64,000 bases of DNA from Deltaproteobacteria bacterium (GCA_021737785.1 JAIPDI010000012.1:1-64000); one strand, 5' to 3'. Counted from the stretch's first letter, positions 2,101 through 49,147 are shown. Notes: generated by a model not told the origin, from the sequence alone. Made by a program: numbers and translations.

Positions 2101-2115
2101 CGGGTTACCAATGAT

Positions 2116-3192: not shown

Positions 3193-3204
3193 CGGCTGTG
3201 GAGG

Positions 3205-4602: not shown

Positions 4603-4638
4603 TATTGCGGCATCAAAATAGGATTTTTCAAGGTATCC

Positions 4639-5196: not shown

Positions 5197-6097
5197 GATT
5201 GGGAGATCTGCACCGATGCTGCTAAAAATATGGCTGATGAATGTGATCTTGGCCGTAGCCGTTTTTTTTGCAGGGATGAAATCAATAGAGGTTTGGACGG
5301 AAAGACGCACACCCCACATCAGTTCAACCAAGGGCACTTTAGCGTGGACGGAAAAGAGTCTGGAGAAAAAGACGCTCCCTCCTGAAGCTGATTACGAGGT
5401 TGTTGTGAGTAATAACCTTTTCTTTGCCGACCGTTCCGAGATTCTTGAGAAATCATCAACAAATGGGCCGGCCTCTGTTCAGCAGGCTGTGGGAGCACAG
5501 CTCCAAGGATTGGAGCTGGCCATCAAACAGATGAATCTCTATGGGGTTATTATGGTCGGTGATCATAAGGAGGCCCTTATCGCTTCGGCTTCTCCTGTCA
5601 AGAGGCCCGGGACCCCCGCGAAGGATGGGGTCAAACGCGCAAGGGAGGGCGATATGGTGGGAAAATTCAAGGTGGAGGAGATCCGCAGCACGAGTGCGCT
5701 GCTCACTGCGGGTGGGTATGAATGGCAGATTACCATCTTCGACAAGGATAACCCCAAAAAACGTGTTCCTGTCAAAAAGGAGGCCGGTCCGATTGTGGTT
5801 GGCGCTGACGTCAAGCCGGAGGCCGGGAAGGCATCCGGAGGCGATGAGGAAAAAGCGCCGGTGGCCCCCCCTGCAATCCCAGCAAAGGGGAGGGCTGCAC
5901 CTGGGACCGGCGAGGCACCTGGAGGCGAGCGGAAAAATGGACAATCGCCCGTGCCTCCAGGTGCCACGCAGGCGATGCCTGAAAAAACGGCAAACCAAGA
6001 ACAAACAACGCCTGAATCCCCCAGAATTAATCCTGCCACCATATGGAGAGGGTCTCCACCACCCATGCCGAATTTGCCGAGGCCTGCAAAAAGGTAA
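5186..6097 (+). CDS. gspC: GspC-like (PilP/HR-domain) secretion protein
   Basis: Predicted clamp protein between the inner-membrane platform and the secretin. A single N-terminal membrane helix (about 11-33) is followed by a motif typical of GspC (NNLFFADRSE, about 72-81). An HR/PilP-like beta domain follows at about 112-192 (LYGVIMVGDHKEALIAS, then KVEEIRSTSALL). The last 110 residues are Pro/Ala/Lys-rich and probably disordered; no PDZ domain or coiled coil is visible. The gene overlaps gspM and precedes gspD, though 427 nt of repeat-bearing DNA separate them. Called GspC by context and domain order. Confidence 0.75.
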   Translation: MKIEIGRSAPMLLKIWLMNVILAVAVFFAGMKSIEVWTERRTPHISSTKGTLAWTEKSLEKKTLPPEADYEVVVSNNLFFADRSEILEKSSTNGPASVQQAVGAQLQGLELAIKQMNLYGVIMVGDHKEALIASASPVKRPGTPAKDGVKRAREGDMVGKFKVEEIRSTSALLTAGGYEWQITIFDKDNPKKRVPVKKEAGPIVVGADVKPEAGKASGGDEEKAPVAPPAIPAKGRAAPGTGEAPGGERKNGQSPVPPGATQAMPEKTANQEQTTPESPRINPATIWRGSPPPMPNLPRPAKR

Positions 6098-6207
6098 GCA
6101 CTCTCCATATTTCATCAAAAAAACGAACGATAGCGGTTGAAAAGGGTATTTCAGGATGTTACATCGAAAAAAAGCAGTTGGGATACTCCGGCGTTTAAAG
6201 CTGAAAA

Positions 6208-6342
6208 GACCCCGAACACACCTGCACGGAAATTCCTCATGGTACTGTGGATACGGTGATTCCGGTCGATGACGGAAGCGATGATGGAACCTTGGACATT
6301 GCTGAAAAACTTGGAATTGAAACATTTTATATAGTGTCCTGA
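6208..6342 (+). pseudogene. Decayed GT2 glycosyltransferase fragment
   Basis: One frame (codons from 6208 to the TGA at 6340-6342) reads like the start of a polyprenyl-phosphate mannosyltransferase-type GT2: EIPHGTVDTVIPVDDGS, then DDGTLDIAEKLGIE. This matches the usual V-D-x-V-I-x-V-D-D-G-S-x-D-G pattern. The beginning of the gene is lost or frameshifted (an in-frame TGA lies just upstream), and the reading frame ends within a miniature repeat element that begins at 6328. No intact downstream part is present. It lies between two T2SS genes where no glycosyltransferase is expected, so it looks like debris from an insertion or rearrangement. Confidence 0.6.
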
Positions 6343-6480
6343 ACGAAAACCCCGTTCAGGCACAATTACGAATTGAGGAATTGCGGATTCCGAATTGATG
6401 GAATAGAGTTGAAATTAATAAAACCAAGTTTTCGATTCCACCCTTTTTGGATTTCCGAGTTTTCGTTCATACACTATATA
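6328..6480. mobile_element. 153-bp miniature inverted-repeat element, copy 1
   Basis: The first ten bases (6328-6337, TATATAGTGT) are the exact reverse complement of 6471-6480. The match continues inward to about 22 bp with one indel (…GAACGAAAAC). A nearly identical element lies at 30308-30459, including the interior with GAATTGAGGAATTGCG and GTTTTCGATTCCACCC. A bare hairpin of the same terminal sequence is at 27790-27818. No coding capacity. It has the form of a non-autonomous MITE. This copy sits directly upstream of gspD and may affect its expression. Confidence 0.8.
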
Positions 6481-6524
6481 GTTCTAGGCCCATTCAGGGA
6501 TGCGAAACTTGAGGTAGATATTTT

Positions 6525-8774
6525 ATGAAACGGATATGGTTCACGAAATCGGGGTGTGGGTGGATGTCTCTGCTCCTAATGGCTTTTCTGTGGAGCTGCG
6601 CCGGCCCGCAACCATCAAAGGAGACCGATGTCCTCAAGGTCGAGCGGATGGACAACTCCCTTTCACCTTCCTTGCCGGAATCAGGGCGAAAAAATGCCGG
6701 CATGAATAAGCAAGAAGCGCATAAGCAGGAAGAGAAGGTGCGTGCTGATACGGAAAGAGGTCCGGCGACCGGGCAAACAACGGCGTCCGCATCCCCGGAA
6801 CCAAAAGCCAAGGCGGATACGCCGGGTATTTCAAAGCGCGCACCCGCCCATACGGCTCCGGGACCTGCTGAAGCGCCAAAAACGTCGGCCCCCACGGAAA
6901 AGGAAGGCCCGAAGATCGTTCTCAATTTTGACAATGCGGACCTTTATGCCGTGATCAGCACCATCGCCGAATTGCTGGAGATCAATTATATTGTTGATCC
7001 CAATGTCACGGGGAAGGTGACCATCAGCACGGCCGGCGGTCTCTATAAAAAGGACCTTTTTCCTGTTTTCCTCCAGATATTGGAGGTCAACGGTCTCACC
7101 GCCATCAAAGAGGGGAGCCTGTACCGAATTGTCCAGTTGAAGGACAGCACGCGGATGCCGATCGAGATGCGCCTCTCGGATCAGGACGAAGACACCCCGC
7201 CCATGGACAAGGTCATCATTCAGATCATTCCCCTCCAGTTCATAGCTGCCCAGGAGATGGTGAAGCTGTTGACCCCCTTTGTATCCGACGGGGGGACCAT
7301 CGTCTCCGACACCGCCTCAAATACCCTTATGGTGGTGGACAAGGGGACCAATATTCTGAAGATATTGAGACTGGTGCAGACCTTTGACATCAATATGCTC
7401 GAAAAGGTCTCCTACAAGGTTTACCCGGTCAAATATCTCGATGTTGAAGAGGTGTCCAAAACCCTTACCGATTTTACCTCCTCTTATGGAGAGGTCAGCA
7501 ACGTCTTTGTCAAATTTATCCCCATCACTCAGCTGAATACCCTCTTTGTCGTGAGCACCAGCCCCATTGTATTTAGCAAGGTGGAGGAAATTCTCCGTCA
7601 AATCGACGTGATCGACAGGGAGGTGGCGCCCAAGGTCTATGTCTATTTTGTCAAGAACGGAGAGGCGGAAAACCTGGCCGATCTTCTGGACCGAGTGTTC
7701 AATAAAAAATCGTCTAAGAAGAAATCAAAGGAGAGCAAGACCGCGGGGTCTGGCGCCGTTTCCAAGAATCCCTTTTCCCGGGAGCGTGTGGCAGAAAAAA
7801 AAGCAGAAGAGACCGCTGCCAAATCCAGGGCCGAAGCGCCTGCCGAGAAGGCCCCTGTAACTGTAGAAGGCGAGGCCCCCGGGGCCGGCACCTTGATGGG
7901 AGAGGTGAATATCACCCCTGATGAGAGACGGAATGCCCTCATCATCGAGGCCGTCCCTTCTGATTATCGGATCATTGAAAATATCCTGCAAACGATCGAT
8001 GTCCTGCCGAGGCAGGTGCTGATCGAGGCCACCATCGCGGAGATCACCCATTCGTCGAGCCGCGAGTTGGGCATGGAGTGGGCCCTTGGAAAAGGCGCTG
8101 CCGCAGGTGCGGCAAGCTTCATGGCTCGAATAGGAAGGGCCGGCCTCAAGTATTCCATCGGTGTGACCGACGAATGGTATGCCGAACTCAGCGCCCTCGC
8201 CTCAAAGGGCCTCGTGAATGTTATCTCCTCTCCCCATGTTCTGGCATCCGACAACAAAGAGGCAAAGATCGATGTCTCCAGAGAGATCCCGGTGGCAAGT
8301 GGACAGACCTTTGTATCGTCCGGTTCAACCATATCCGAGACCGCCATCGAGTATCGGGACACGGGCGTGATTCTCTCCGTCACTCCCCACATCAACGATC
8401 GGGGCCTGGTCACCATGGACATCAATGAGGAGGTCAGCGATTTGGACAAGGATGTGAATGTGGCGGGCCAGAATTACCCCTCTTTTTTCAAGCGGATCGT
8501 CACGACGACGCTGACCGTAAGACACGGTCAGACCATAGCGATCGGAGGCCTGATCAAGGATAGGGAGTCCGACAATGTCAGCGGCGTGCCGTGTCTGATC
8601 GACATCCCGGTGGTCCGGTATCTGGCCGGGCTAAACACGAAAGCGACGGAAAAAATTGAGCTTATCGTCCTGCTGACGCCCAGGGTCGTTGCCAATCTGG
8701 ATGATGTTGATGCGGTGACGGAGGAATTCAAGCAGAAAGCAAGAAATGTCGTGAAGCGGTTTTTTCCAAAATGA
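6525..8774 (+). CDS. gspD: Type II secretion secretin GspD
   Basis: Outer-membrane channel of the T2SS. The N-terminus resembles a lipoprotein signal ending in LWSC25. A Pro/Ala/Lys-rich linker is followed by N0 (about 129-200), N1 (about 228-290), N2 (about 298-365) and N3 (about 370-495, interrupted near 395-455 by a Lys/Ala-rich insert). The secretin barrel domain runs about 493-745 with VNVISSPHVLASDN and VTPHINDRGLVTMDI. A GAGGT lies about 10 nt before the ATG. Length 749 is normal. The lipoprotein N-terminus suggests self-piloting rather than a separate pilotin; that is inference. Confidence 0.95.
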   Translation: MKRIWFTKSGCGWMSLLLMAFLWSCAGPQPSKETDVLKVERMDNSLSPSLPESGRKNAGMNKQEAHKQEEKVRADTERGPATGQTTASASPEPKAKADTPGISKRAPAHTAPGPAEAPKTSAPTEKEGPKIVLNFDNADLYAVISTIAELLEINYIVDPNVTGKVTISTAGGLYKKDLFPVFLQILEVNGLTAIKEGSLYRIVQLKDSTRMPIEMRLSDQDEDTPPMDKVIIQIIPLQFIAAQEMVKLLTPFVSDGGTIVSDTASNTLMVVDKGTNILKILRLVQTFDINMLEKVSYKVYPVKYLDVEEVSKTLTDFTSSYGEVSNVFVKFIPITQLNTLFVVSTSPIVFSKVEEILRQIDVIDREVAPKVYVYFVKNGEAENLADLLDRVFNKKSSKKKSKESKTAGSGAVSKNPFSRERVAEKKAEETAAKSRAEAPAEKAPVTVEGEAPGAGTLMGEVNITPDERRNALIIEAVPSDYRIIENILQTIDVLPRQVLIEATIAEITHSSSRELGMEWALGKGAAAGAASFMARIGRAGLKYSIGVTDEWYAELSALASKGLVNVISSPHVLASDNKEAKIDVSREIPVASGQTFVSSGSTISETAIEYRDTGVILSVTPHINDRGLVTMDINEEVSDLDKDVNVAGQNYPSFFKRIVTTTLTVRHGQTIAIGGLIKDRESDNVSGVPCLIDIPVVRYLAGLNTKATEKIELIVLLTPRVVANLDDVDAVTEEFKQKARNVVKRFFPK

Positions 8775-8783
8775 GTTAAGGAC

Positions 8784-9155
8784 GGAAGGATGGAATGATG
8801 GAATATCTCGGAAGGGTACTGTCGGAGGAGTCTGAAAGAGTATTTGAATCAACCGAACATTGCCCTTGGTTCGTGTGGAGAGTTCAACTCCTGCTATGAG
8901 AGTTTCAAACAAGCAGGCCAAATCACAGACGATGAATACGAGCGATTAGACAGCCTCCACTATAAAGTTGAGAATGAATTGCTTAAATTGATCCAATCGC
9001 TGCAGAAAAAGCAAAAGGAAGACGTTTGGGAGGACAACTTCCTCCAATGACCCAAACACCGATGCCATCACTGCGTCGCCCCATTATTGCATCATTCCAC
9101 CATTCCACCATTCCATTATTCCAATATTTGCCTATTCCGTCATTCCAATTTCGTT
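8784..9155. repeat. GGAAT/ATTCC-rich arms flanking a gene remnant
   Basis: A purine arm rich in GGAATGATGGAATA (about 8784-8806) and a complementary pyrimidine arm made of reiterated CATTCCA units (about 9084-9152) flank the truncated four-helix-bundle gene. The arms are imperfect reverse complements. The same arms, without any gene between them, recur at 22407-22540. The right arm runs up to the start of the Wzm gene. Confidence 0.6.
8799..9050 (+). pseudogene. 5'-truncated four-helix-bundle (23S rRNA intervening-sequence type) protein gene
   Basis: The open frame from 8799 reads NISEGYCRRSLKEYLN, then NIALGSCGEF, CYESFKQAGQI and LHYKVENELLKLIQSLQKK. These are the conserved second half of the small four-helix-bundle proteins found in 23S rRNA intervening sequences and at many free-standing loci. 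The first helix and a proper start are missing: an in-frame TGA lies at 8796-8798, where the GGAATGATGGAA repeat takes over. A TTG at 8844 could start a 68-residue stump, but this is more likely a remnant. Function of the family is not established. Confidence 0.7.
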
Positions 9156-9156
9156 C

Positions 9157-9966
9157 ATGACCCTTCTTTCTCTCATCGGACGCTGGCTGAAGGTCCCGGT
9201 TCGGTTCCGGACGCTTTTCTGGGGATTCGTGAGCAACGAGATCCGCGGACGTTTTGCGGGGTCCATCGGCGGCTTTGTCTGGAGCCTGCTGACCCCGCTG
9301 GCCAATCTCTTAATATATATCTTTGTGTTTTCAGTGGTGCTGCAGATCCGCCTGAAACCGATGGAAACCGGTACCGACAGCTTCGCGGTCTTCTTTCTGG
9401 CCGGGATGCTGCCGTGGCTGGCCTTTTCAGAGGCGCTTAACGGTTCCACGGATCTTTTTCTGGGAAGGGCCAATCTGATTACCAAGATATCCTTTCCTTT
9501 AGAACTCCTCCCGCTGACAGGCGTCATCGTGCCTTTTTTTCTAAATGGTCTCGGATTTGTCATGTATCTGGGGTATCTGGTCCTGAAGGGGTACGCCCAT
9601 GTGGGGTGGCTCTGGCTTCCGGTGGTGATCGCCGTGCACATGGCATTTACCCTCGGCCTGGTTATTCTGATATCGAGCCTGACCGTCTTTTTAAGGGATA
9701 TCAAGCAGTTCATTGGGATTGTCATTTCATTGTGGTTCTTTTTGACGCCGATCATCTATCCCCTCGGCATGGTCCCGCAAGGATATCGATGGCTGATCAA
9801 ATTCAATCCGATGTATCCGTTTATCGAACTCTACCACCAGGTGTTATTGCAGGGCACCTTTTCGTGGGCGATGCTCGGATACGCTATCGGACTGGGCGCC
9901 ATTCTGCTGGGGGGCGCCATCCTTTTTTTCGAACGTTCCAAGTATGCCTTTGCGGATGTCTTGTAG
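9157..9966 (+). CDS. wzm: ABC-2 type polysaccharide/O-antigen export permease (Wzm-like)
   Basis: Inner-membrane permease of an ABC exporter for an undecaprenyl-linked glycan. The 269 residues contain six predicted membrane spans, with the FVWSLLTPLANLLIYIFVFSVV segment near 42-63 and the LTPIIYPLGMVP segment near 196-207 typical of the Wzm/ABC-2 polysaccharide family. It is immediately followed by the Wzt-type ATPase, the standard pair. No good ribosome site precedes ATG 9157, which abuts the ATTCC repeat; promoter and leader may lie in that repeat. Confidence 0.9.
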   Translation: MTLLSLIGRWLKVPVRFRTLFWGFVSNEIRGRFAGSIGGFVWSLLTPLANLLIYIFVFSVVLQIRLKPMETGTDSFAVFFLAGMLPWLAFSEALNGSTDLFLGRANLITKISFPLELLPLTGVIVPFFLNGLGFVMYLGYLVLKGYAHVGWLWLPVVIAVHMAFTLGLVILISSLTVFLRDIKQFIGIVISLWFFLTPIIYPLGMVPQGYRWLIKFNPMYPFIELYHQVLLQGTFSWAMLGYAIGLGAILLGGAILFFERSKYAFADVL

Positions 9967-9970
9967 GGAG

Positions 9971-11179
9971 ATGGAAAAGATATCGGCGGCGGTGGATGCG
10001 CAACATCTGACAAAGGAGTACAGGGTCTACCGGAAGCCTTTTGACCGTCTCAAAGAAGCCCTTCGTCGTCGGGCCTGCCATGACCTTGTTGCAGCGTTAA
10101 CCGATGTTTCTTTTCAGGTAGTCCCGGGCGGTACGTTAGGGATCATCGGTGAGAACGGCGCCGGCAAGTCGACCCTGCTGAAGATACTGGCCGGCACGGT
10201 AAGACCCACTTCGGGAAAACTTACGCGCAGGGGCAGACTGGCGGCCCTCCTGGAGCTGGGTTCCGGCTTTCATCCGGAATTCAGCGGGCGACAAAACATC
10301 TACCTGAATGCCGCCCTGTTAGGGCTGGAAGAGAGGGAAATCAGGGAAAAAGAAGACGCGATTATCGAGTTTTCCGAATTGGGAGACGTCATTGACCGGC
10401 CTGTGAAGACATATTCATCGGGAATGTATCTCCGGCTGGGGTTTTCCATTGCAACGAGTGTCGATCCTGAGATCCTGATCGTTGATGAGGCCCTGGCCGT
10501 GGGGGACCAGAGATTTCAGCAGAAGTGCGTTGACCGGATGGCAACATTCAGGAAGAGCAATAAGACCATCATTTTCTGCAGCCACAGCATGTATCTGGTA
10601 AATGAATTGTGTGCCGACAGTATCTGGCTGTATAACGGACGGGTCCGCGGCTATGGCAAGACATCTCATGTGGTTTCCGAATATCTCGCGTACATGGAGG
10701 ATACCGGGGAAATGCACCCTCCACCGGTTAACGGGGGCCCTCGGGAAAGCGCCTCAAGGCCGGACGTGGTGATCGAAGAGATAAGGCTCCTGGACGATGA
10801 AGGCAAGCCATTCGAACAGATCGAGCAGTTTCAAGCCCTGATATTTCAGGTGCGGACCCGTTGCATCGGCCCACCCATAAGAGGACATGTGAGCATCGGA
10901 TTTGAGACGATGGAGGGTCAGCGGATTTTTGCAACCACCACCAAGCTTTGCGGTCTGCGGCCGGTTGAGTTCACCGGGGAGAGAATTATCGAACTGGTGA
11001 TCCCGTCCATCCCGGTGGTGGGAGGGATATACCGGGCCAGGGCGAGGGTGGGGGATGAACATGCCATGACGGTCATACACGAATTAAACAGCGAACCGTT
11101 CCAGATCGAGAGCGACCGTCCGGAAGTCGGCATGGTTTGGATGAAACACCTCTGGCGGTTTCCAGGCCCCAGCATCTGA
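9971..11179 (+). CDS. wzt: O-antigen/polysaccharide ABC exporter ATPase (Wzt-like) with C-terminal glycan-recognition domain
   Basis: ATPase partner of Wzm. Walker A (GENGAGKSTLLK, about 60-71), signature (YSSGM, about 147), Walker B (ILIVDEALAVGD, about 168-179) and H-loop (CSHSM) are intact. Residues from about 255 to 402 form a beta-rich C-terminal domain like Wzt-C. In characterised O8/O9a-type systems that domain binds the modified non-reducing end of the glycan before export. ATG 9971 gives an N-terminus (MEKISAAVDAQHLTKEY) typical of the family; ATG 9944 would overlap wzm by 23 nt. Confidence 0.92.
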   Translation: MEKISAAVDAQHLTKEYRVYRKPFDRLKEALRRRACHDLVAALTDVSFQVVPGGTLGIIGENGAGKSTLLKILAGTVRPTSGKLTRRGRLAALLELGSGFHPEFSGRQNIYLNAALLGLEEREIREKEDAIIEFSELGDVIDRPVKTYSSGMYLRLGFSIATSVDPEILIVDEALAVGDQRFQQKCVDRMATFRKSNKTIIFCSHSMYLVNELCADSIWLYNGRVRGYGKTSHVVSEYLAYMEDTGEMHPPPVNGGPRESASRPDVVIEEIRLLDDEGKPFEQIEQFQALIFQVRTRCIGPPIRGHVSIGFETMEGQRIFATTTKLCGLRPVEFTGERIIELVIPSIPVVGGIYRARARVGDEHAMTVIHELNSEPFQIESDRPEVGMVWMKHLWRFPGPSI

Positions 11180-11182
11180 GAT

Positions 11183-12301
11183 GTGAGAACACTCGCTATT
11201 ACCGTCAATTATAAGAGTTCAGACCTGACGCAGCAGGCGGTTCAATCGGTCCTGGACGCCGAATCCATGGGTCCGGTTCGAGTGGTGGTGGTGGACAACA
11301 GCGAGGACAGGGAGGAGGCAGAGAAATTACAACGATGTCTTCCTCCGGGAGTCGTCCTGCTGGCGAGTCCTGAGAATATCGGTTTTGGCCGTGCCTGCAA
11401 CCTGGCCTTTGAACAGTTTGAAGGAGACCAGGTTCTCCTCCTCAATCCGGATGCCAGACTCCTGCCGGGCTGTCTGCGCCATCTTCAACAGCTCCTTTCT
11501 TCTTCCCCTCGTGTCGGGGCCGTCTCCCCACAGATCTTCTGGGATGATGCGCTCAATTTCTATCTCCCTCGGTCTATTCCCACAGCGCTGTTTGAATTTC
11601 AGGAGGCTTTTAGTTCACTAAATCCTCAGGCGCCCATAAACAGATTCCTGAGCGCTGCCTGGCGATATTCGTGTATCAGGGTCTGGCAATCTCGACACCC
11701 CGTCCGGGTAAGCAACCTTTCCGGCGGCCATGTCCTCTTGAAGAGAGAGGCCGTGATCCGGGCCGGAGGTCTGTTCGATCCCGGGTTCTTTCTCTATTTT
11801 GAGGACACTGACCTGTTTGTCCGCCTGAGAAAGAGGGGGTATCTCCTTTTGGTGGAACCCAGGGCCAAGGTGGTGCACTATGTGGACCAGTGCGGGGAAG
11901 ATCGGGCGTGGAAACAACAGATGATGGTCCGATCTCGTGCGAGATTGCTGGAGAAGCATGCCTCCGGTTTCAGCCGTTGCGCAGGGAAGACGGCCGGTCG
12001 TTTGGGCCTGGGCTTGAGGGGCCGGAGCAAGGGGGTTCCGCCACCAAACTTCACAGCGCCCTTTGTCCTGAATGTGCCGCCATCCCTGCAGAAGAAATGG
12101 CTTTTTGAGGTGAGCCCCCACCCCAACTTTGTTCCGTCAGCAGGTCGTTTTGGAAAGGGCCCGCGGATGGTGTTTCCTCAGAAGCAGTGGAATCTTATGG
12201 CTCCCGGGCAGTATTTTGGGCGTTTGGGAAGTCCTGCAGGGTTTGGTAAACGATTTCTTACCGTATCCTGGTTCGTCGACAGCGGTATCTCAAGACCATG
12301 A
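11183..12301 (+). CDS. GT2 family glycosyltransferase, rhamnosyltransferase-like
   Basis: Cytoplasmic GT-A transferase. The fold is seen in the opening TLAITVNYKSSDL, the VVVDNSED segment (about 35-42), an acceptor-site-like NIGFGRACN (about 69-77), the donor-binding LLNPDARL (about 90-97) and EDTDLFVRLRKRGY (about 213-226). The C-terminal 100 residues are basic and poorly defined. GTG start 4 nt after wzt. Its last 4 nt (ATGA) overlap the next gene. Donor sugar cannot be told from sequence. Confidence 0.85.
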   Translation: MRTLAITVNYKSSDLTQQAVQSVLDAESMGPVRVVVVDNSEDREEAEKLQRCLPPGVVLLASPENIGFGRACNLAFEQFEGDQVLLLNPDARLLPGCLRHLQQLLSSSPRVGAVSPQIFWDDALNFYLPRSIPTALFEFQEAFSSLNPQAPINRFLSAAWRYSCIRVWQSRHPVRVSNLSGGHVLLKREAVIRAGGLFDPGFFLYFEDTDLFVRLRKRGYLLLVEPRAKVVHYVDQCGEDRAWKQQMMVRSRARLLEKHASGFSRCAGKTAGRLGLGLRGRSKGVPPPNFTAPFVLNVPPSLQKKWLFEVSPHPNFVPSAGRFGKGPRMVFPQKQWNLMAPGQYFGRLGSPAGFGKRFLTVSWFVDSGISRP

Positions 12302-39504: not shown

Positions 39505-41034
39505 ATGGTCTTGCCGATGACAAGAACCTTTTGCATATTGCCATGGATTCATCTGATGGTCCTTCCGGAAGGTTGTGTGAAGATCTGTTGTTTTGCAGGC
39601 CGGAATATCATGCAAGAAGGTGAACCCATGTCCCTTTACAGTTCCAGCATCAAAGATATCTGGAACTCATCACACCTGCGGTCCATTAGGCATAGCATGG
39701 TCAAGGGGGAAGCGGTACTTGAGTGTGCACACTGCTACCAGGAGGAGGCGGATACGGGCAGCAGCCACCGAATCCATTCCAATTTCAGATGGAAATCCGA
39801 ACTCGGACCATTGTTTGATGCGCTGGTGAACGAGTCACGTCTTCGAGCTTTTTCGGTCTCCACATTGCCGGTTTATCTTCAGCTGATTCCCGGAAATCTG
39901 TGTAATCTCAAGTGCAGGATTTGTTTCCCTCGATTCAGTTCCCAAATAGAAAGCGATCCTGTTCATAGAAGCTGGGCCCTTGGAGCGTATAAGACCGGGT
40001 CACCCGTGGAAGGCACAAGGGGAAAGGCAAGAGTTGTGAGCGGCATTGATGGTTTCAGGCGTGTTGTTCAAGGAATGCGGATCGCCAGAAGACTAATCTC
40101 AGGGTTGAATAGCAATTTCTTTAATCAGCATCATTGGAGGACAACCAAAGGGGATCCCGGGTACGGTAAAGGGAGTCCGGAAAATGGGAAAGGGCATCGG
40201 GAATACGGTATCTTTGAACCGGAATCTGTGGGCAATGGGAGTCCCTCCCGGCTTCCGAGGAAGCCTTGGTTTAAAGATCGATCATGGGTGTTTGAAGAGC
40301 TTCTGCGGGAACCCGAACGGTTTAGGGCACTCTATCTGACCGGAGGAGAACCAATGATCCAGATGGAGGCGGAAGAAATTATAGGATATCTCGTTCAGCA
40401 AAAAGCATCCCCTGAAATGACTTTGGAACTAAACACGAACTGCACGGTAGTAAAAGACGCCTTGGTCGATAAATTCCATAGTTTCAAACGAATTTATATG
40501 GGCATGAGCATCGATGCATATGGCGATTTTTATGAGTATATCCGATATCCGGCCAAGTGGCATGTTATAAGGAAGAATATCGTCAGACTCATCAGTCTGC
40601 CGGCCGATAAGTTCACGGTTACGGCTGTGCCGATTCTCCAGGCCTATAATGTCCTTAATATCGTGGACCTTCTCAGGTATCTCGACAAAAAGGGGGTAAG
40701 TTACGGAATAGAGGTGGCTTCTGAGCCATGGTTTATCTCCCTGGGAGTGTTGCCTCCCAGCGTAAGGTTGCGTGCTGCCAGAAGGTTAAGGGCTTATGCC
40801 AATTCGGATTGTCCCGGCTTCAGGCGCTCTCACGTTTTATCCGTAGCCGATGTCATTGAGTCGGTTCAGGACAACTGCACCAGGGAATCATTGCAGGCGC
40901 TGATGTTATTCACCAATGACCTTGACGCCACCCGGGGCCAGAGTTTCAGGGAGGTACATCCCGAACTCCTCGGCATGATAGAAGAAGAGGGCTTCAACTG
41001 GTCTGAAGAGAGGCATTTTTTCCCCTCAGTCTAA
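39505..41034 (+). CDS. Radical SAM protein with N-terminal twitch/SPASM-like cysteines
   Basis: 509 residues. The N-terminus FCILPWIHLMVLPEG followed by CCF matches the cysteine-bearing region of twitch/SPASM-type radical SAM proteins common in surface-polysaccharide loci; a further HCYQEE motif lies near 77-82. The core [4Fe-4S] motif CNLKCRIC is at 133-140. Then LYLTGGEPMIQ near 275-285 and ELNTNC strands. A low-complexity Gly/Lys/Ser insert (about 210-245) splits the barrel. The reaction is unknown; SAM-radical chemistry on a sugar or peptide is inferred. Confidence 0.85.
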   Translation: MVLPMTRTFCILPWIHLMVLPEGCVKICCFAGRNIMQEGEPMSLYSSSIKDIWNSSHLRSIRHSMVKGEAVLECAHCYQEEADTGSSHRIHSNFRWKSELGPLFDALVNESRLRAFSVSTLPVYLQLIPGNLCNLKCRICFPRFSSQIESDPVHRSWALGAYKTGSPVEGTRGKARVVSGIDGFRRVVQGMRIARRLISGLNSNFFNQHHWRTTKGDPGYGKGSPENGKGHREYGIFEPESVGNGSPSRLPRKPWFKDRSWVFEELLREPERFRALYLTGGEPMIQMEAEEIIGYLVQQKASPEMTLELNTNCTVVKDALVDKFHSFKRIYMGMSIDAYGDFYEYIRYPAKWHVIRKNIVRLISLPADKFTVTAVPILQAYNVLNIVDLLRYLDKKGVSYGIEVASEPWFISLGVLPPSVRLRAARRLRAYANSDCPGFRRSHVLSVADVIESVQDNCTRESLQALMLFTNDLDATRGQSFREVHPELLGMIEEEGFNWSEERHFFPSV

Positions 41035-41133
41035 TCTCGGTTTACTTCAATTCACCAAATTGGTCTCGACTAGAAACAGGTCCCATACTTCTTCAAAAAT
41101 CGTGATCCATTCAAGGGAGGGGTTAAGGCAGGA

Positions 41134-43335
41134 GTGCTGATCAAAAGCGTTTATCACAATGTCTCCAGAGTTCTGACAATGAAAGGGTTGATCCGCTTTA
41201 CGGATTTCTTGGAGACACTGAGTGCCCGCTCTTCTATCCGGCGAATCCTGGGAGATAAAAAAAATCAATTCTTCACCCATTTCTGTGTTGGGCTTCATTT
41301 AGGGGCGAGGGCGGCCTTCTATGTTGTGTTACCCCCTCCGCCCTTACACGGCGGGAGAAAAAACCCGTCCTCTGGCTGCGGCCGCCAAATCGTCAGGAAT
41401 ATAAAAACGCTGGCATCGTCGGTGTGGGGCGCTGATTTCAGAATTGTGACCATCGATCCAAATAACGGTGGGATCCTGACATTCAGGCATAATCATAAAA
41501 TCGATCACCCCGCCCTCTTTCAGAAAAAAGAGGTCGTCTTCCTGGTGAATCCTTCTTTTCTTCTATTGCCGGAACATCCACTGCAGGAGATGCTCTTGGC
41601 AGTCCAAAACCACACCATGGCTGTCACGGCCAAGCATTTCGGCCGGTCTTTGTACGGCATAGCAATAGATCGTTCAATGATGAAGCATCCCTTACTCGGA
41701 CAGGCGCTTTCCTCCCTGGTTGCCGATGAGGATCTCATGCCGGAAATCATATGGCCTCAGCATGACAATGTGAAATTTGTCCATGGAGGTGGCCTCGGCG
41801 CACACGAACTTTCACCGGCAGTCGAAGGGGCATCCCATTTGAATTGTAAACGCTCCTCTGTTTCTCCATGTTATCTCAACAAGGCCCTATCGGAGGTACT
41901 TTACTTTCCGGTGGATACTGCTCAGGTCAACGGTTCTCCTGAAAGGATGCGCCAAGCCCTTCTTGCCCACCGGGACTGTTCAGCTGTTCCCTGGATTTTT
42001 AATGTCCTGGCCAATCAGATTGAGTATCGGACGGGTAAGGTCGTCACGGATAGTCTCCCCCCGGAGGTCCATTTATCCGTCACCGGAAGGTGTAACCTGG
42101 AATGCCGTTTTTGCAGCTACTCCCATGGTATGTCCAAAACAGAGCATGTGGGGATAGCGCAGATGCAATGTCTTGACTTTTTAAACCATCTCCAAACAGT
42201 TCGTCTTTCAAGCGGTTTGGGAGAACCCACGATAAACCCGCACCTGGGTGCAATCATTGAATATCTGGGAATACAATTTCCTCATATTGATATCAATTTT
42301 TCCACGAATGGGGTTGCTCTGAATGATAATGGACTGGTCAATCAACTTATAAATAAAGTGTCCTATATTAATGTCTCTCTCAACGCTACAACCCCGCATA
42401 CCTGGAAGGAATTGTGCCGGAGAGATTTATTTGACCGTGTCTGCTCTAACCTGAGGGACCTTCAGCGTGCCAAACGCAAGGCGGCCGCGTTGCTCCCTCT
42501 GGTGTATGGATCGATGGTGCTGACCACGAAAAATATCCGTGAACTCCCGGATATGCCGGGACTCTGTCGTTCCCTGGGCGTCGATCGATTTACCGGGATC
42601 CCGTTTTTTGCCTTTAACTACAATAAGTCCGAAAAATACGGTGTCGCTGAGACCTTCCACCAGTGTCATGGCGAATACGAACGCATATATCACCGAACCC
42701 TCCAAGAGGCGCGCAGACACAGGGTGAGCATTGAAATCCCGGTGCCTCAAAGCAGGAAGCGTGTTGGTTTTGGCGTAGAAGTGCGCGGGTTTTATGACTT
42801 TGCCGGAATCGAGGAACCCCCGCCAAGGCTGGATCCCCTGGTGGACGGTCTCAGGTACGAGGCCCGGAACCGCAAATCATGCCCGGAAATATGGAAAATC
42901 GCCTACATAACCAATACCCATATGGATTCTTTGAATGGGTCCGCAACCCACTACCTCTATCCATGTCTGGGTCCGTTAAGTATGGTTGATTTTTCGATGA
43001 AGACGCCGTTTCGTTTTCCTCCCCATGATGGTTTCCTGCAGCTCTGGAACAGCCCTCTCTACAGGAGACTTCGCAAGGCACAGAGTATGCCTGGAGTTTC
43101 ACGGGTTTGTGATTTGTGCCGAAACATAGACAGCAGAGATCCGTCGCATTTTAAGAAACTTGAGGGGCTGTTGAATGGATTGAAGCTGCAGTCGGTGACC
43201 GGGCCGGAACACGCCCTTCCCCTTTTAGAGAAAACTTCTGAGACACCGCCTAATAGGTCATCGGAGGGATCTCCAGATACTTGGCAAAGGCATTGTGTCG
43301 ATGGGCAATTGCAAGGACCTCAAGGGCGTGTTTGA
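41134..43335 (+). CDS. Radical SAM/SPASM protein with large unknown N-terminal domain
   Basis: 733 residues from GTG 41134. Residues about 1-300 show no familiar motif and may bind substrate. The radical SAM motif CNLECRFC sits at 320-327, followed by LSSGLGEPTINPHLG and INFSTNGVAL. C-terminal cysteines (YPCLG near 611; CDLC near 659-662) fit an auxiliary SPASM-type cluster. The last 60 residues look disordered and overlap the convergent aminotransferase gene tail by 86 bp. It pairs with the radical SAM gene just upstream. Confidence 0.85.
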   Translation: MLIKSVYHNVSRVLTMKGLIRFTDFLETLSARSSIRRILGDKKNQFFTHFCVGLHLGARAAFYVVLPPPPLHGGRKNPSSGCGRQIVRNIKTLASSVWGADFRIVTIDPNNGGILTFRHNHKIDHPALFQKKEVVFLVNPSFLLLPEHPLQEMLLAVQNHTMAVTAKHFGRSLYGIAIDRSMMKHPLLGQALSSLVADEDLMPEIIWPQHDNVKFVHGGGLGAHELSPAVEGASHLNCKRSSVSPCYLNKALSEVLYFPVDTAQVNGSPERMRQALLAHRDCSAVPWIFNVLANQIEYRTGKVVTDSLPPEVHLSVTGRCNLECRFCSYSHGMSKTEHVGIAQMQCLDFLNHLQTVRLSSGLGEPTINPHLGAIIEYLGIQFPHIDINFSTNGVALNDNGLVNQLINKVSYINVSLNATTPHTWKELCRRDLFDRVCSNLRDLQRAKRKAAALLPLVYGSMVLTTKNIRELPDMPGLCRSLGVDRFTGIPFFAFNYNKSEKYGVAETFHQCHGEYERIYHRTLQEARRHRVSIEIPVPQSRKRVGFGVEVRGFYDFAGIEEPPPRLDPLVDGLRYEARNRKSCPEIWKIAYITNTHMDSLNGSATHYLYPCLGPLSMVDFSMKTPFRFPPHDGFLQLWNSPLYRRLRKAQSMPGVSRVCDLCRNIDSRDPSHFKKLEGLLNGLKLQSVTGPEHALPLLEKTSETPPNRSSEGSPDTWQRHCVDGQLQGPQGRV

Positions 43336-44959
43336 ACTTCGTGACGGTTTCATCCAGGCTCTGGTCATCATGAGCCATACTGGGCAACATGACCCCCATA
43401 TAGGTCACCAGCCCCTGTTTCAATAATTCCTGTTGAAGCAACGTTCTCATCAAGACAACCGTCTGAGGATCAGCCTCTTTGAAACGCATTAACATTCGGA
43501 ACGGAGGACCGATCAGCTCGGCAGCCGGTACGGTTTCTTTACAGAGCCGGTTAATCGATGTCTTTAGACGGTTTCCATAATCCCAAATATGGCCGGGAAC
43601 ATCGAGTTCCCGATAAATAGTGAGGGCTTCATTGGCGGCGGCAAAGGAATAGACTTCGCCTTTGAATGTCGGGCCGTAAAAAATGTTGGGCATGGTGCTC
43701 TGGAAAATGTCTCTGCGTCCGACAAGGGCGGAAAGGGGCATCCCTGCGCTCAATCCCTTCCCAAAACAGGCCAGGTCCGGAATGACACCCGTTGCCTTCT
43801 GAACACTGCCGCCGGGATATCGAAATCCGGTGATAATTTCATCAAAGATAAGGATGGCGCCTTCGGTCCGCGTTCTGGAGGCAAGGGCCCTCAAGAAATT
43901 CTGGTCAGCATCACGTAACGGACCGTTCAATCCCTCTACCGGGCCGGCAGGTTCAAGCATCACAGCAGCTATTTGGCCTTTGTGTGTCTCCATTAAGCCC
44001 TGCAAGTGGTCTTCATCGTTAAATTGGAAGGGATAAACAAGCTGTTCCCCGTGCTCGGGAACCCCCGTGTGGGTGAAACCCTGTTTTTCAACATACCAGT
44101 CCTGCCAACCGTGATAACCGCACACGAGGATTTTCTTCCGACCGGTATAACGACGTGCCAGCCTGGCTGCAGCCGTACACACATCAGACCCGTTTTTGCC
44201 AAACAGCACCATCTCAGCGCATGGGATGTCCTCACATAGTTTCCGGCTCACGTCCATTTCCAGATGGTGCGGTAGAGAGGAGATAGCCCCCGAGGTCATT
44301 GATTCTATGACGGCCTGTTGGATTCGCTCGTTTGCATGCCCGAGCAATGCGCACCCCCACCCCATAATGTAATCAAGGTATGTTCGGCCCTCTATATCAG
44401 TAAAACGGCATCCCTTTGAATGACGGGCAAACAGGGGATACGCCTGTCCCGAACTGCTCCAGGAGATGCCCTGGCTGGGAAGAGAAAACCAGTTGTTGAG
44501 TTGGCAGGCCTGATCAAACATGAGGGCGCCTGGACTTGGCGGTTTTCTCGTCGTTTCAAAAACAATCCGAAACCATGCCTCTTTAACCTCCTCCAGCCTG
44601 ATCCTTTCGGCGTTGGTTATTTCAATCCTTATTCGGTGACGGCCGGCCCTCTTCGGCGTCCTCAGAATGGAGTGAACGTTTAGCACTTCTCCGGGGGAAA
44701 GACAATTCTTTGGGACTTCCACTTGCTGAAGGAATCTTCTGTTAAGGTATAGGGTAAGGAAGACCTTCCGGTTGTCAGTTGAACAGAGGTTTATATCGCT
44801 CGGGCCTCGATTCCTCAAACCCATCCAGAGGGTTCGGAGGGTGGATGATGGGAGCGAGGGGGGGCAATTATGTTCCAATGAAAGGGATTCTTCTTTAGCG
44901 GTTTTCCGCTTGAAGACCTTCAGGAATTGAGTGCCGTTCCAAAAATTTTGCAGTCGCAT
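43250..44959 (-). CDS. PLP class III aminotransferase (glutamate-1-semialdehyde-aminomutase-like) with N-terminal beta-rich domain
   Basis: 569 residues. Residues about 150-560 are a class III aminotransferase: YLDYIMGWGCALLGHANERI, the PLP aspartate region LIFDEIITGFRYPGG, and Schiff-base Lys401 in FGKGLSAGMPLSALVG. The N-terminal 140 residues form an extra predicted beta-sandwich (LRNRGPSDIN…VFLTLYLNRRF…LSPGEVLNVHSILRTP), like the end of the neighbouring reductase. Transamination of a keto-sugar, or 2,1-aminomutase chemistry, is plausible. It follows the reductase gene on the minus strand by 83 nt. Confidence 0.85.
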   Translation of the reverse strand: MRLQNFWNGTQFLKVFKRKTAKEESLSLEHNCPPSLPSSTLRTLWMGLRNRGPSDINLCSTDNRKVFLTLYLNRRFLQQVEVPKNCLSPGEVLNVHSILRTPKRAGRHRIRIEITNAERIRLEEVKEAWFRIVFETTRKPPSPGALMFDQACQLNNWFSLPSQGISWSSSGQAYPLFARHSKGCRFTDIEGRTYLDYIMGWGCALLGHANERIQQAVIESMTSGAISSLPHHLEMDVSRKLCEDIPCAEMVLFGKNGSDVCTAAARLARRYTGRKKILVCGYHGWQDWYVEKQGFTHTGVPEHGEQLVYPFQFNDEDHLQGLMETHKGQIAAVMLEPAGPVEGLNGPLRDADQNFLRALASRTRTEGAILIFDEIITGFRYPGGSVQKATGVIPDLACFGKGLSAGMPLSALVGRRDIFQSTMPNIFYGPTFKGEVYSFAAANEALTIYRELDVPGHIWDYGNRLKTSINRLCKETVPAAELIGPPFRMLMRFKEADPQTVVLMRTLLQQELLKQGLVTYMGVMLPSMAHDDQSLDETVTKFKHALEVLAIAHRHNAFAKYLEIPPMTY

Positions 44960-45042
44960 GGTGTGCCATTTCTTAGTGATGGAATGGTTGTTTTGAAATC
45001 CCCATGTGCATCAAGGGATCGCATGATCATACCCCCTTCATT

Positions 45043-46593
45043 TCAGGAATGATTTCTGACGAGGATCTCTTGTTCCCCCATCGGCAACACAGGGGCGTAT
45101 TTCTTCCAGCGAGATGATTGAGCCAGGAACAAAGAAAATTTCACAGTACCAGGATCTAAGGGAGCTGAAAGCTCAAATATAAAGTGGGTACGCTCCAAAG
45201 GATGTACATCATGACGCAGGTGAATGGTTTGGAGCACTCCCCCATCAAGGGAAACACAGAGTACAATCTTGGGCTGATTTCGATTCGCGTCGGCATGCCA
45301 TGGCAGACGGCCGCTATTTTCCACGTAGAGCCGACAGATTTTCGTCCTTCCACACAGTACCTCTGCGGGGAATTCCTTTGTAATGATCTTAGCGCGATAG
45401 CCCTCCTTGGGTCCAGAAATTTCAGGAAGGTCTGCCGGTGAAACCATTCCTTTTGACCGAAGCCCTTTCATGAGGGTATGAATGCGGCCGAGGGTCACGG
45501 GGATGTCGATCCCTTTGATACAAGCGCATGTAATGTTTTGGCATTTGGCGCATATTATTTCCTCGTCAGGGTGAAGCCTAAAATATTCATGCGTTTCCGG
45601 TGTCTCAAATGTCTCGGAAGGATAATTGGCAATATAGGCCGCCCTAAACAGCCAGGATATGGGCAGGTCTTGGCTGCATAAGGCGTCGCAGCGGCCGCAA
45701 CGGCTGCATGCGGCAATTGCCAGAGATTGGGCCTGATACTCGACATGCCGGATATCTTCTTTTCTCAAGGGGATTCGGCCCCATCCGCTGAGGGCGTTTT
45801 CCTCGGCCTCTTCAATGGATGCCGTCCCTGGAACAACGCAGGATATCTCTTCGTTCATCAGGATATGGCGTAAGACCTTTCCGGCCGAGATTCTATTGGA
45901 CTCGGGAAGGAGACGCCCGCTCCGCTGCGGAAACGCACGTCCGGGGCACAGCAATCCTCCTGCAAGGGGTTTCATAATCATGAGCCCCACATCCTTCTTT
46001 CGTGCTGCCGGGAATACAATCTCTTTGTTGCCCTGGAGATTTTCAGGGTCTTTTCCGGGAAGATCGGCGGTAAGCAGATGAAAGCCAAGGATGTTATAGG
46101 GTATCATCAGGGCGTCAAAGACATCGGACGCAATCAATTTTCGGATATATTCCGGTGATCCGTGGGTGGTGCAAAAAATGCCGCCGAGCCTCCCCTTTTC
46201 CTTTTTTCTGAGCAGGAATTCCACCATGCCGCCGGTTCCCCAGACATTTTCACCCAATGTCTCCCGATCCTCGATACAGGCGATTCCAAAAAGCTCCAGA
46301 CGTTTTTTGCGGAATGTGCGGCAGGTGGTTTCAAAAAAATGCTCAAACAATCCCGGGGGGCCGTATCCTTGCGAACAGATGATGACATTCCTAGACGTTT
46401 CTCGAAGGGCTTGCGCCACCAGGGCGTCGGCACCTTCGTAATCCGGGGCGACATGGACGATGTTAACCCCCAACTCGAACCCACGCCGAAGGGTCCCGAC
46501 GGCCTGACGGGCTGGAACCAATCTCAACTGGCATGTACCGAAACCTACTACCGATACGTGAAGATCGGTGCGTCCCAAACGCCGGTAATTCAT
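45043..46593 (-). CDS. Aldo/keto reductase with ferredoxin-like cysteine clusters and C-terminal beta-rich domain
   Basis: 516 residues. Residues 1-285 are an aldo/keto reductase barrel: YRRLGRTDLHVSVVGFGTCQ, with the catalytic region shifted (VAPDYEGADALVAQAL) and SCVVPGTASIEEAEEN. Cysteine groups CSRCGRCDALC (from 295) and CAKCQNITCAC (about 345) suggest iron-sulfur clusters. The last 110 residues form a beta-rich domain (RLYVENSGRLPWHADANRNQ … IVLCVSLDGGV) resembling the aminotransferase N-terminus. An iron-sulfur reductase of this kind could transfer electrons to or from radical SAM enzymes; this is inference. Confidence 0.8.
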   Translation of the reverse strand: MNYRRLGRTDLHVSVVGFGTCQLRLVPARQAVGTLRRGFELGVNIVHVAPDYEGADALVAQALRETSRNVIICSQGYGPPGLFEHFFETTCRTFRKKRLELFGIACIEDRETLGENVWGTGGMVEFLLRKKEKGRLGGIFCTTHGSPEYIRKLIASDVFDALMIPYNILGFHLLTADLPGKDPENLQGNKEIVFPAARKKDVGLMIMKPLAGGLLCPGRAFPQRSGRLLPESNRISAGKVLRHILMNEEISCVVPGTASIEEAEENALSGWGRIPLRKEDIRHVEYQAQSLAIAACSRCGRCDALCSQDLPISWLFRAAYIANYPSETFETPETHEYFRLHPDEEIICAKCQNITCACIKGIDIPVTLGRIHTLMKGLRSKGMVSPADLPEISGPKEGYRAKIITKEFPAEVLCGRTKICRLYVENSGRLPWHADANRNQPKIVLCVSLDGGVLQTIHLRHDVHPLERTHFIFELSAPLDPGTVKFSLFLAQSSRWKKYAPVLPMGEQEILVRNHS

Positions 46594-46905: not shown

Positions 46906-46909
46906 ATGA
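46646..46909 (+). CDS. Possible small cysteine-rich protein (doubtful)
   Basis: 87 codons from a TTG. Three CxxC pairs (CPLC, CHWC, CYSC) plus two other Cys hint at a zinc ribbon. The stop overlaps the next gene's ATG as ATGA. But the start codon is poor, composition is ordinary for random frame in an AT-richer spacer, and no family is recognised. Kept only because of the CxxC pattern and the overlap. Confidence 0.22.
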   Translation: MEYKECRFDQSRNNLFQSCPLCREERKASISLPCHWCVRHKTRPNSRTAACYSCINARREMTCKGFKWFLKILGLSFDPNWKKEKII

Positions 46910-47685
46910 GAAAAAAGGACTTGCCTGATTCATCCATGTGGCGGTTCTGGGGTTTCTTATCGCTGATGTTTATCTCTCTCTATCTCATGGTGCCGGTATC
47001 TGTCCTCGGTGCAGATAAATTGATAGTGAAAAATGAAAGCGGAACAGAGACCTTTAAGGTGAGTGACAGCGGGTCCATAACTTCCGCATCTTCCTTGCTG
47101 TCGAATGGTGCGGGAGCCTGGGGATCAGCCCCTTTTGTCCTTGGGCAAAACCTTGGGAACAGGGGGATGGTGATCACAGATAAGGCGACCAGTAATCAGA
47201 AAAACATCTATTTCGGATGGAATGTCGGCGCATCCCATGACTATGCAGAGCTCTTCGCACTCCAGGAGGGGGTAGCATACAAAAATTTCATCTTGAACCC
47301 GAATGGCGGCCATGTGGGCATAGGCACCACTTCCCCTTCGTATCCGTTGCAGATGGGAAGCGGCGCCTATGTTTCGTCCGGCGGTGTATGGACAAATGCC
47401 TCCAGCCGGGAATTAAAAACAAATATCAGAGAATTGACGGATGAGGAGGCAATGGATGCGCTACAGGGGCTGAGGCCGGTCAAATTCAGTTATAAAGTTG
47501 AAAGGGACGAGACCCATGTGGGCTTTGTCGCAGAGGATGTTCCGGATCTCGTGGCATCGAGGGACAGAAAAGGGATGAGTTCGATGGATGTGGTTGCGGT
47601 ATTGACCCGGGTGGTTCAGGAGCAGCAGAAGACCATCGCCGAACTCTCACGAAAAGTGGCTGAACTCGAAAAGAACATCAAGTAA
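46906..47685 (+). CDS. Exported fibre-like protein with peptidase S74 intramolecular chaperone domain
   Basis: 259 residues. Signal-like hydrophobic segment about 12-36. The middle (GGHVGIGTTSPSYPLQMGSGAYVS) is the beta-repeat type found in phage tail fibres and large surface proteins. The end (SSRELKTNIRELTDEEAMDAL at about 166, HVGFVAEDVPDLV, DVVAVLTRVVQEQQKTI and a coiled coil) is the S74 chaperone that trimerises and may cleave itself. Sits upstream of the papain-like protease by 12 nt. Likely a trimeric surface fibre. Confidence 0.82.
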   Translation: MRKKDLPDSSMWRFWGFLSLMFISLYLMVPVSVLGADKLIVKNESGTETFKVSDSGSITSASSLLSNGAGAWGSAPFVLGQNLGNRGMVITDKATSNQKNIYFGWNVGASHDYAELFALQEGVAYKNFILNPNGGHVGIGTTSPSYPLQMGSGAYVSSGGVWTNASSRELKTNIRELTDEEAMDALQGLRPVKFSYKVERDETHVGFVAEDVPDLVASRDRKGMSSMDVVAVLTRVVQEQQKTIAELSRKVAELEKNIK

Positions 47686-47696
47686 AGAAGGGCCTC

Positions 47697-48941
47697 GTGA
47701 AAGGTATGGCAAGAAAAGGACTACGGGGGATTCTGGCGGGTGTTCTGACTTTGGCCGTTTTTGGGGTTGCGGAGGCAGACGATGGGATATATACCAACAC
47801 CCTCATGCATCCGGACGATGACACGCGTCTCGAGTGGATCAGGAACTTCCAGCGGGCGCCGTTGGCCCGGATGGACGATGAACTCCAGTTCAGGGCCGCC
47901 TTCAGAGGATCTCTCAGCCTTCTGAGCTATCTCGACTATATCCCTTCTGAAAGAGACCAGGGCGTCTGCAATAATTGCTGGGCATGGGCAGGGACCGGCG
48001 TCGTGGAGATTGCCTTGAATATGGAACGGGAAATCTATGACCGCCTTTCGGTGCAGCTCATCAGCTCCTGCGATACGGTGTTAAGCTGTTGCGAGGGAGG
48101 ATGGTTGAACGATTTTGTCTCATTCTATGAAATAGAAGGATACACCATTCCCTGGTCCAATGCCAATGCAAATTGGCAGAACCGGGACGGACGCTGTGAT
48201 GTTTCATGCGAGAGCATTTCTACCCTCCCCAATTATCCTCTCTCTTCCATTACCCTTGAGAGGATTGCAACACACGGGGTGGGCCAGGCCCAGGCGATCT
48301 CCAATATCAAAAATGTCCTCAACCAGGGCCGGGCCGTTTGGTTCGGTTTCTTTATGAGCACGAGGGAAGACTGGAGCAGTTTCAACACGTTCTGGAACAC
48401 CCAGATCGAGGAGACATCGTGGGATTTTGATGCGAGCTGCGGCAAGCCCTATATCTCCGGCGCGGGGCATGCGGTCTTGTGCGTCGGGTACAATGATGAT
48501 GATCCCAACAATGCCTACTGGATCATGCTGAACAGCTGGGGCACGACTGCCAATCGGCCGAACGGGCTCTTTCGGGTTGCTATGGAGGTGGACTATGACT
48601 GTGCCGACAGCACGGGAGAATATAATCTCTATTGGCAGACATTGGATGTTGCGTTTGATATTACGGAAGAAATTGTCTATGTTGAGCCTTCGGCCTTTTG
48701 CGGCGGCCATAGGCCCTGCTATGGAACGATTCAGGAAGCGATCAACACATCCGGTGCAGAAGCGACCATAAGGATTGTCGAAGGAAGGAATTTCGAAGAT
48801 GTGACCCTGAACAGCGCCAAGAATATACGGCTGGAGGGAGGATGGGATTCCACATTCACCAACCGATCATCCAACACCACCATCGATTCCTTGACAGTCA
48901 ATAGCGGAACGGTAGCGGTGGAGTTTGTGGTTTGTCAGTGA
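47697..48941 (+). CDS. Exported papain-like (C1) cysteine protease with C-terminal extension
   Basis: 414 residues; signal peptide about 1-27. Catalytic residues are in place: Gln88, Cys94 followed by Trp (QGVCNNCWAWA), His258 (GHAVLCVGYN) and Asn279 (NSWGTT). The disulfide pattern (SSCDTVLSCCEGG) fits bacterial C1 family members. The last 100 residues (VEPSAFCGGHRPCYGTIQEAI …) form a beta-helix-like extension. Start GTG 47697 has GAAGG upstream; ATG 47706 is possible. It may process surface proteins; export by the T2SS is inference. Confidence 0.87.
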   Translation: MKGMARKGLRGILAGVLTLAVFGVAEADDGIYTNTLMHPDDDTRLEWIRNFQRAPLARMDDELQFRAAFRGSLSLLSYLDYIPSERDQGVCNNCWAWAGTGVVEIALNMEREIYDRLSVQLISSCDTVLSCCEGGWLNDFVSFYEIEGYTIPWSNANANWQNRDGRCDVSCESISTLPNYPLSSITLERIATHGVGQAQAISNIKNVLNQGRAVWFGFFMSTREDWSSFNTFWNTQIEETSWDFDASCGKPYISGAGHAVLCVGYNDDDPNNAYWIMLNSWGTTANRPNGLFRVAMEVDYDCADSTGEYNLYWQTLDVAFDITEEIVYVEPSAFCGGHRPCYGTIQEAINTSGAEATIRIVEGRNFEDVTLNSAKNIRLEGGWDSTFTNRSSNTTIDSLTVNSGTVAVEFVVCQ

Positions 48942-49147
48942 GTGAATTGAGCTGATAAGCTGTTGAACTGAGAAGGGCGCCCATCAGCTATGACTTACCA
49001 GCCATGACCCATCAGCCAGCAACGAGCAACGAGTGGCCAGCAAACACCAGTGATCGGAGTTCAGAAGTCAGGGGTCAGCAAAACCCAACCACCTCAATAA
49101 ACCCAATAAACCCGAAACGCGAGCAACCAGTGACGAGCAACGAGACC
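48942..49147. repeat. Low-complexity spacer with reiterated GCAACGAG
   Basis: 206 nt with repeated AGCAACGAG/ACGAGCAACGAG units (about 49015-49050 and 49120-49145) and similar CCAGCAA words. No gene. The longer in-frame extension of the next gene through this repeat is probably not translated. Confidence 0.5.

Follow-up and report, generated by a model that had tools for sequence, protein, structure and literature searches.

Three genes lying side by side in a polysaccharide locus of a Deltaproteobacteria bacterium almost certainly form a real, rare cassette. They encode a radical SAM protein (RS2), a class III PLP-dependent aminotransferase (AT) and a protein of the aldo/keto reductase type with iron-sulfur cysteines (AKR). 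No paper describing this combination was found in the literature searched and, as far as that search goes, the cassette is undescribed. The kinds of enzyme and their likely logic are known; the novelty lies in how they are combined, in the altered Fe-S AKR and in the N-terminal domain of RS2. The DNA analysed, a stretch of 64,000 nucleotides, is referred to here as the window. Four open reading frames, the three of the cassette and that of a neighbouring radical SAM protein (RS1), are all intact between positions 39505 and 46593:

39505..41034, + strand: RS1, NF033640 radical SAM protein with a twitch domain and an insertion of 99 aa; judged to lie beside the cassette without belonging to it
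41134..43335, + strand: RS2, radical SAM protein (Pfam Radical_SAM, 51 bits)
43250..44959, - strand: AT, class III (glutamate-semialdehyde-aminomutase-like) PLP aminotransferase (Aminotran_3, 147 bits)
44552-44890, - strand: Ig-like beta domain of AT, N-terminal, placed by profile
45043..46593, - strand: AKR, aldo/keto-reductase barrel with Fe-S cysteines (Pfam, 39.7 bits)
45064-45399, - strand: Ig-like beta domain of AKR, C-terminal, placed by profile

Recurrence and setting of the cassette

RS1 and RS2 converge on AT and AKR, and the 3' ends of RS2 and AT overlap tail to tail by 86 bp. Since the two pairs are convergent, these four genes do not form a single operon in this genome. The surrounding genes mark a polysaccharide locus: they encode several glycosyltransferases, methyltransferases, a Wzt-type ABC protein, a flippase-like protein and, at 49004, a GDP-fucose-synthase-like epimerase. 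Also inside this locus (46906-48941) are a protein with an S74 endosialidase-chaperone domain and then a papain-family protease. No RNA elements were found in the window and promoter predictions were at the level of chance. Terminator-like sites were slightly above chance (14 versus 9.1 expected, sd 2.7) and are not used in the argument.

RS2 was searched for in 297 genomes of the phylum and 46 of the family, in 120 genomes of the family of Nitrosomonas sp. Nm34 and 398 of its phylum, and in an alignment-based scan of 84,980 species. Across all these searches a full-length RS2 was present in only three other genomes, and in each of them AT and AKR directly adjoin it. The scan of 84,980 species gave the same picture, with AT and AKR adjacent in 3/3 genomes that have a full-length-type RS2, while none of the other radical SAM loci that it returned has both partners. 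Two of the genomes (G231 and G335) represent other genera of the same family and keep the convergent order RS2> <AT <AKR. In Nm34 the genes form an operon in the order AKR>AT>RS2 with intergenic gaps of 0-3 bp; elsewhere they overlap or are separated by short gaps. The coordinates of these three cassettes are as follows:

G231 (L033): RS2 1653-3593, + strand; AT 3585-5312, - strand; AKR 5329-7023, - strand
G335 (L041): RS2 cut by the contig end, its N-terminal part sitting on another contig; AT 1191-2930, - strand; AKR 2927-4615, - strand
Nitrosomonas sp. Nm34 (L045): AKR 5591-7546, + strand; AT 7550-9625, + strand; RS2 9626-11713, + strand

The cassette is known from these four genomes only. 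Of the 46 family genomes three contain RS2, and AKR was found in precisely these (probability of such a coincidence by chance 6.6e-5); among the 297 phylum genomes the strong matches to AKR are the two genomes with RS2. The cassette proteins are 36-59% identical to one another, with the exception of the N-terminal fragment of the G335 RS2 (23-37%), and identities of 36-59% therefore indicate an old, maintained linkage. The original prediction had treated the four genes as one functionally linked block, to be checked by their co-occurrence across genomes. For RS2, AT and AKR the linkage is supported by their recurrence together in 4/4 genomes with a full-length RS2, in two gene orders and in two bacterial groups that are distant from each other, but it does not extend to RS1, which does not recur with them.

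RS1 belongs to a known subfamily, NF033640 (N_Twi_rSAM; 283.2 bits, cut-off 170), and is its sole match above the cut-off in the 46 family genomes. Neither of the other two family genomes with a cassette has an NF033640 match above the cut-off, and no RS1-type gene was found beside the G231, G335 or Nm34 cassettes. A four-gene system including RS1 was rejected on account of this known family and of the missing RS1 beside the other cassettes. What sets RS1 apart from the rest of NF033640 is a Gly-rich stretch of 99 aa containing short repeats (KGDPGYGKGSPENGKGHREYG; window 39958-40254), inserted between the two matched parts, which are a twitch-type domain at the N-terminus and the core with the radical SAM motif. 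There was no phage match to RS1.

The polysaccharide setting that had been predicted fits both the window and the Nm34 cassette, which lies near a GDP-mannose dehydratase, a GDP-fucose-synthase-like gene, a phosphomannomutase and WcbI. The G231 and G335 cassettes (2/4) are outside any obvious polysaccharide locus, so that the proteins may act on something other than a polymer produced by neighbouring genes; a reading of the cassette in terms of glycans is weaker for the same reason. The cassette has probably spread horizontally, as it is shared by a single Nitrosomonas and a few Deltaproteobacteria. Carriage by phage or plasmid was rejected, as the cassette proteins were not found in viral contigs and plasmid matches were limited to the radical SAM part or to the barrel of AKR. 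One plasmid match, in Brachyspira hyodysenteriae, was dismissed as a cassette because the radical SAM protein there is a different one and the rhamnose locus around it has no genes annotated as AT or AKR. On this plasmid, pBHWA1 (L138 14941-27699), several annotated radical SAM/SPASM proteins are clustered beside rhamnose and glycosyltransferase genes.

The three proteins and their shared domain

The two cysteine motifs predicted for the radical SAM proteins, CNLKCRIC in RS1 (residue 133) and CNLECRFC in RS2 (residue 320), were both confirmed, and both proteins exceed the Pfam Radical_SAM cut-off (51.3 bits for RS2, cut-off 29.5). The spacing CxxxCxxC is present in only 0.5% of shuffled RS1/RS2 sequences. 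RS2 is made up of about 300 N-terminal amino acids, a radical SAM core (Cys 320/324/327, invariant) and a C-terminal region with Cys 583/611/659/662; its GTG start is uncertain, M16 being an alternative. The four C-terminal cysteines (C-x27-C-x47-C-x2-C) are invariant in all homologues covering these positions and their spacing fits one auxiliary cluster, which would be twitch-like. This region has no Pfam SPASM match and its structural model is poor.

No Pfam domain was found in residues 1-300 of RS2 up to E 10. A SpsF-like nucleotidyltransferase, suspected there by eye, was rejected, since hhalign gave it a probability of 0.1% and Pfam was empty. RS2 scores below the models for DesII (TIGR04426, dTDP-4-amino-4,6-dideoxyglucose ammonia-lyase; 19.9 bits, cut-off 450) and HpnH (TIGR03470, adenosyl-hopene transferase; 23.4 bits, cut-off 225), and its best matches among curated profiles include metalloenzyme and peptide maturases, all below cut-off. 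The AlphaFold model of RS2 is poor (mean pLDDT 45.5), with an unusable N-terminal part, and its radical SAM core alone was matched. DesII (Z 15.0) and BlsE (14.3) were the top structural matches of this poor model, with NifB tied at 14.2, and we give little weight to the apparent likeness to the sugar enzymes.

AT proved to be a class III PLP aminotransferase as predicted (Aminotran_3, 147 bits, cut-off 30.5), and its Schiff-base Lys401 is invariant in 4/4 cassettes. Its scores are below the cut-offs of the hemL model for glutamate-1-semialdehyde 2,1-aminomutase (TIGR00713; 201.5 bits, cut-off 527) and of NF004856, another model of the glutamate-semialdehyde-aminomutase type (258 bits, cut-off 486). 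Among proteins that are not part of a cassette, its closest relatives share about 40% identity with its core and carry an N-terminal part that reads by eye as a SpsF-like cytidylyltransferase. These fusions, of the polysaccharide/nonulosonic acid type, are the nearest class III aminotransferases to AT but have the cytidylyltransferase-like part where AT has its Ig-like domain, and the searches found neither a full-length RS2 nor a cassette-type AKR in their genomes. Fusions of this kind, with the N-terminal part again assigned by eye, occur in several families of the phylum (L155, L156, L158, L159, L160).

The assignment of AKR to the aldo/keto reductase family, with ferredoxin-like cysteines, was also upheld: a match to PF00248 (Aldo_ket_red; 39.7 bits, cut-off 24) is followed by the cysteine clusters, and the modelled barrel resembles AKR family 11 and L-galactose dehydrogenase (Z ~21, rmsd 3.1-3.5 A over 229-239 residues). 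Related aldo/keto reductases with two [4Fe-4S] motifs go by the name of COG1453, which one paper lists with aldo/keto reductase and classes under function unknown/general prediction. COG1453-type proteins share with AKR the barrel and a C-terminal ferredoxin-like domain with eight cysteines. In contrast, AKR has lost the Asp, Lys and His of the catalytic tetrad, has a respaced second cysteine set and has gained the Ig-like domain. In 4/4 cassettes the tetrad Asp is replaced by His47, Tyr52 is kept, Lys is replaced by Gln or Asn (position 75) and the fourth segment is without His, whereas all four residues are retained by those COG1453-type relatives of the same phylum whose sequences extend over the sites. 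The cluster cysteines (296/299/302/306 and 348/351/356/358) are all invariant, the second set being CxxCx4CxC instead of the CxxCxxCx3C of the relatives. On the cofactor side, the C-terminal motif PGTAS..EA.EN is retained.

Because three of the four catalytic residues are lost, AKR is probably not an ordinary reductase, and the name reductase that it had been given is doubtful. With the residues for hydride transfer lost and the eight cluster cysteines kept, it is more likely to be an electron partner than a carbonyl reductase. In the literature searched, no such barrel was found to have a function in electron transfer.

The resemblance predicted between the N-terminal beta domain of AT and the C-terminal one of AKR was borne out by reciprocal profile matches and by hhalign (97.6% probability, E 3.7e-12). 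A profile of the AT domain matched the three Deltaproteobacterial AKRs with E 5e-13 to 1e-11, and a profile of the AKR domain matched the ATs with E 1e-13 to 0.0016, the weakest match being the window's own AT. Judged by these profiles, the two domains are homologous. In Nm34 (L045 5591-9625) the second AKR copy of the domain and the first AT copy share 94% identity, which reflects a recent exchange or duplication between the neighbouring genes. Neither beta domain has a direct Pfam match; a homologue (L148) that the domain profile picked up hits the N_BRCA1_IG domain PF16158 (39.1 bits, cut-off 28), and in the AKR model the region is all beta (~78 pLDDT).

In its own genome the domain was found by profile search in AT and AKR only. 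Across the phylum the same profile found two proteins with Sulfotransfer_2 and Wzt_C (a domain of O-antigen ABC transporters), an FkbM methyltransferase and another methyltransferase, as well as predicted lipoproteins and a protein with N_BRCA1_IG-type repeats. This company points to glycan enzymes, but it is not proof of glycan binding given that predicted lipoproteins carry the domain too.

Proposed function and its alternatives

We tentatively propose an amino-sugar cassette, acting most likely on a cell-surface polysaccharide or an activated precursor, in which RS2 makes a keto sugar, AT aminates it and AKR carries electrons. The SAM cluster of RS2 would generate a 5'-deoxyadenosyl radical that removes hydrogen from one of the sugar's carbinol carbons; the second electron would go to the twitch-like auxiliary cluster, leaving a keto (or keto-deoxy) sugar. 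AT would then convert the ketone or aldehyde to an amine by PLP-dependent transamination. AKR would not reduce the substrate but would relay electrons between RS2 and the pool of NAD(P)H, and the shared Ig-like domains may bind AT and AKR to one glycan or to one another. Radical chemistry making the keto group used by AT, which had already been suggested in the original prediction, is plausible by analogy. In this scheme we infer the substrate, the order of reactions, the electron route and the formation of a complex, whereas the gene linkage, the domains and their homology, the residue losses and the cluster cysteines were observed. A further-reaching reading is doubtful: the three proteins would form an as yet undescribed machine, with the altered AKR as an NAD(P)H-to-radical-SAM electron conduit and the Ig-like domains tethering AKR and AT to the polysaccharide, so that amination would happen on the polymer and not at the nucleotide-sugar stage.

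Comparable pairs act in antibiotic pathways. In the 2-deoxystreptamine route of butirosin a PLP aminotransferase reportedly aminates the ketone made by BtrN; the butirosin aminotransferase is of the DegT type. The proposed cassette would resemble it in having a twitch-type radical SAM protein with a four-Cys auxiliary cluster and in making a ketone on a sugar-like ring that is then aminated. However, RS2 has an extra N-terminal domain of about 300 aa, AT is of class III and not DegT, the third partner is an Fe-S AKR, and the setting would be a surface glycan and not an antibiotic cluster. In TDP-desosamine synthesis DesV aminates the keto sugar made by DesII. DesII and BlsE (blasticidin S) are radical SAM enzymes whose substrates are nucleotide-linked sugars or sugar nucleosides, and they head the matches to the RS2 model, but RS2 is far below the DesII cut-off and unrelated radical SAM enzymes rank level with them in the structural comparison. 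We know of no AKR partner for DesII/DesV or BlsE. With regard to the auxiliary cluster, BtrN has a four-cysteine cluster of this kind and oxidises an aminocyclitol to a ketone (PMC9012708).

Within the same sugar pathway AKR could still be an enzyme, its remodelled site (His47, Tyr52, Gln/Asn75) carrying out an epimerisation, an elimination or a cofactor-bound oxidation while the Fe-S domain has a structural or regulatory role. We find this somewhat doubtful. The substitutions are themselves conserved (Asp to His in 4/4, Lys to Gln/Asn, with Tyr kept) and the retained PGTAS..EA.EN suggests that the pocket may still bind a nucleotide and a substrate, but eight invariant cluster cysteines seem excessive for a regulatory role and no precedent was found for such an exchange of residues. 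It is unlikely that the cassette matures a peptide or protein, with RS2 as a SPASM/twitch-type maturase, AT turning a side-chain carbonyl into an amine and the Ig-like domains binding the peptide or protein. Peptides are the substrates of many SPASM/twitch radical SAM enzymes (PMC9012708), and the maturases among the profile matches of RS2, although below cut-off, are in keeping with such a role. On the other hand, the gaps of 0-3 bp in Nm34, and the overlaps or short gaps of the other cassettes, leave no space for a precursor-peptide gene inside the cassette, though one may lie in the flanks, and RS2 matched no RiPP family at its cut-off.

Synthesis of an amino-lipid by the cassette is quite unlikely, even if the hopanoid route uses the same two enzyme classes in series, with the radical SAM protein HpnH followed by the class III aminotransferase HpnO on the side chain. 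RS2 is weakly similar to HpnH, but at 23 of the 225 bits needed it falls far short, it has a large N-terminal domain and the four-Cys C-terminal set, the genes flanking the cassettes included none recognisable as hopanoid genes, and the Ig-like domain points to glycan enzymes. That unrelated genes simply happen to stand together in a polysaccharide locus is extremely unlikely. The convergent arrangement in the window and an RS1 unrelated to the other three genes would agree with this, and for RS1 it holds. For RS2, AT and AKR it is contradicted by their recurrence in four genomes, in two gene orders and in different surroundings, and by the domain that AT and AKR share.

Pairs of a radical SAM enzyme and an aminotransferase are already known from antibiotic sugars, and a recurrent counterpart for surface glycans with an Fe-S partner of its own, as in the amino-sugar cassette proposed here, would extend that logic if true. 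The way in which cells reduce their radical SAM enzymes is a recognised gap (PMC10470005). AKR lends itself to direct testing through its respaced clusters and uniformly lost tetrad, and the record of Nm34 names a strain that can be requested. The proposed cassette would also hint at the way in which such an enzyme acquires an electron partner of its own.
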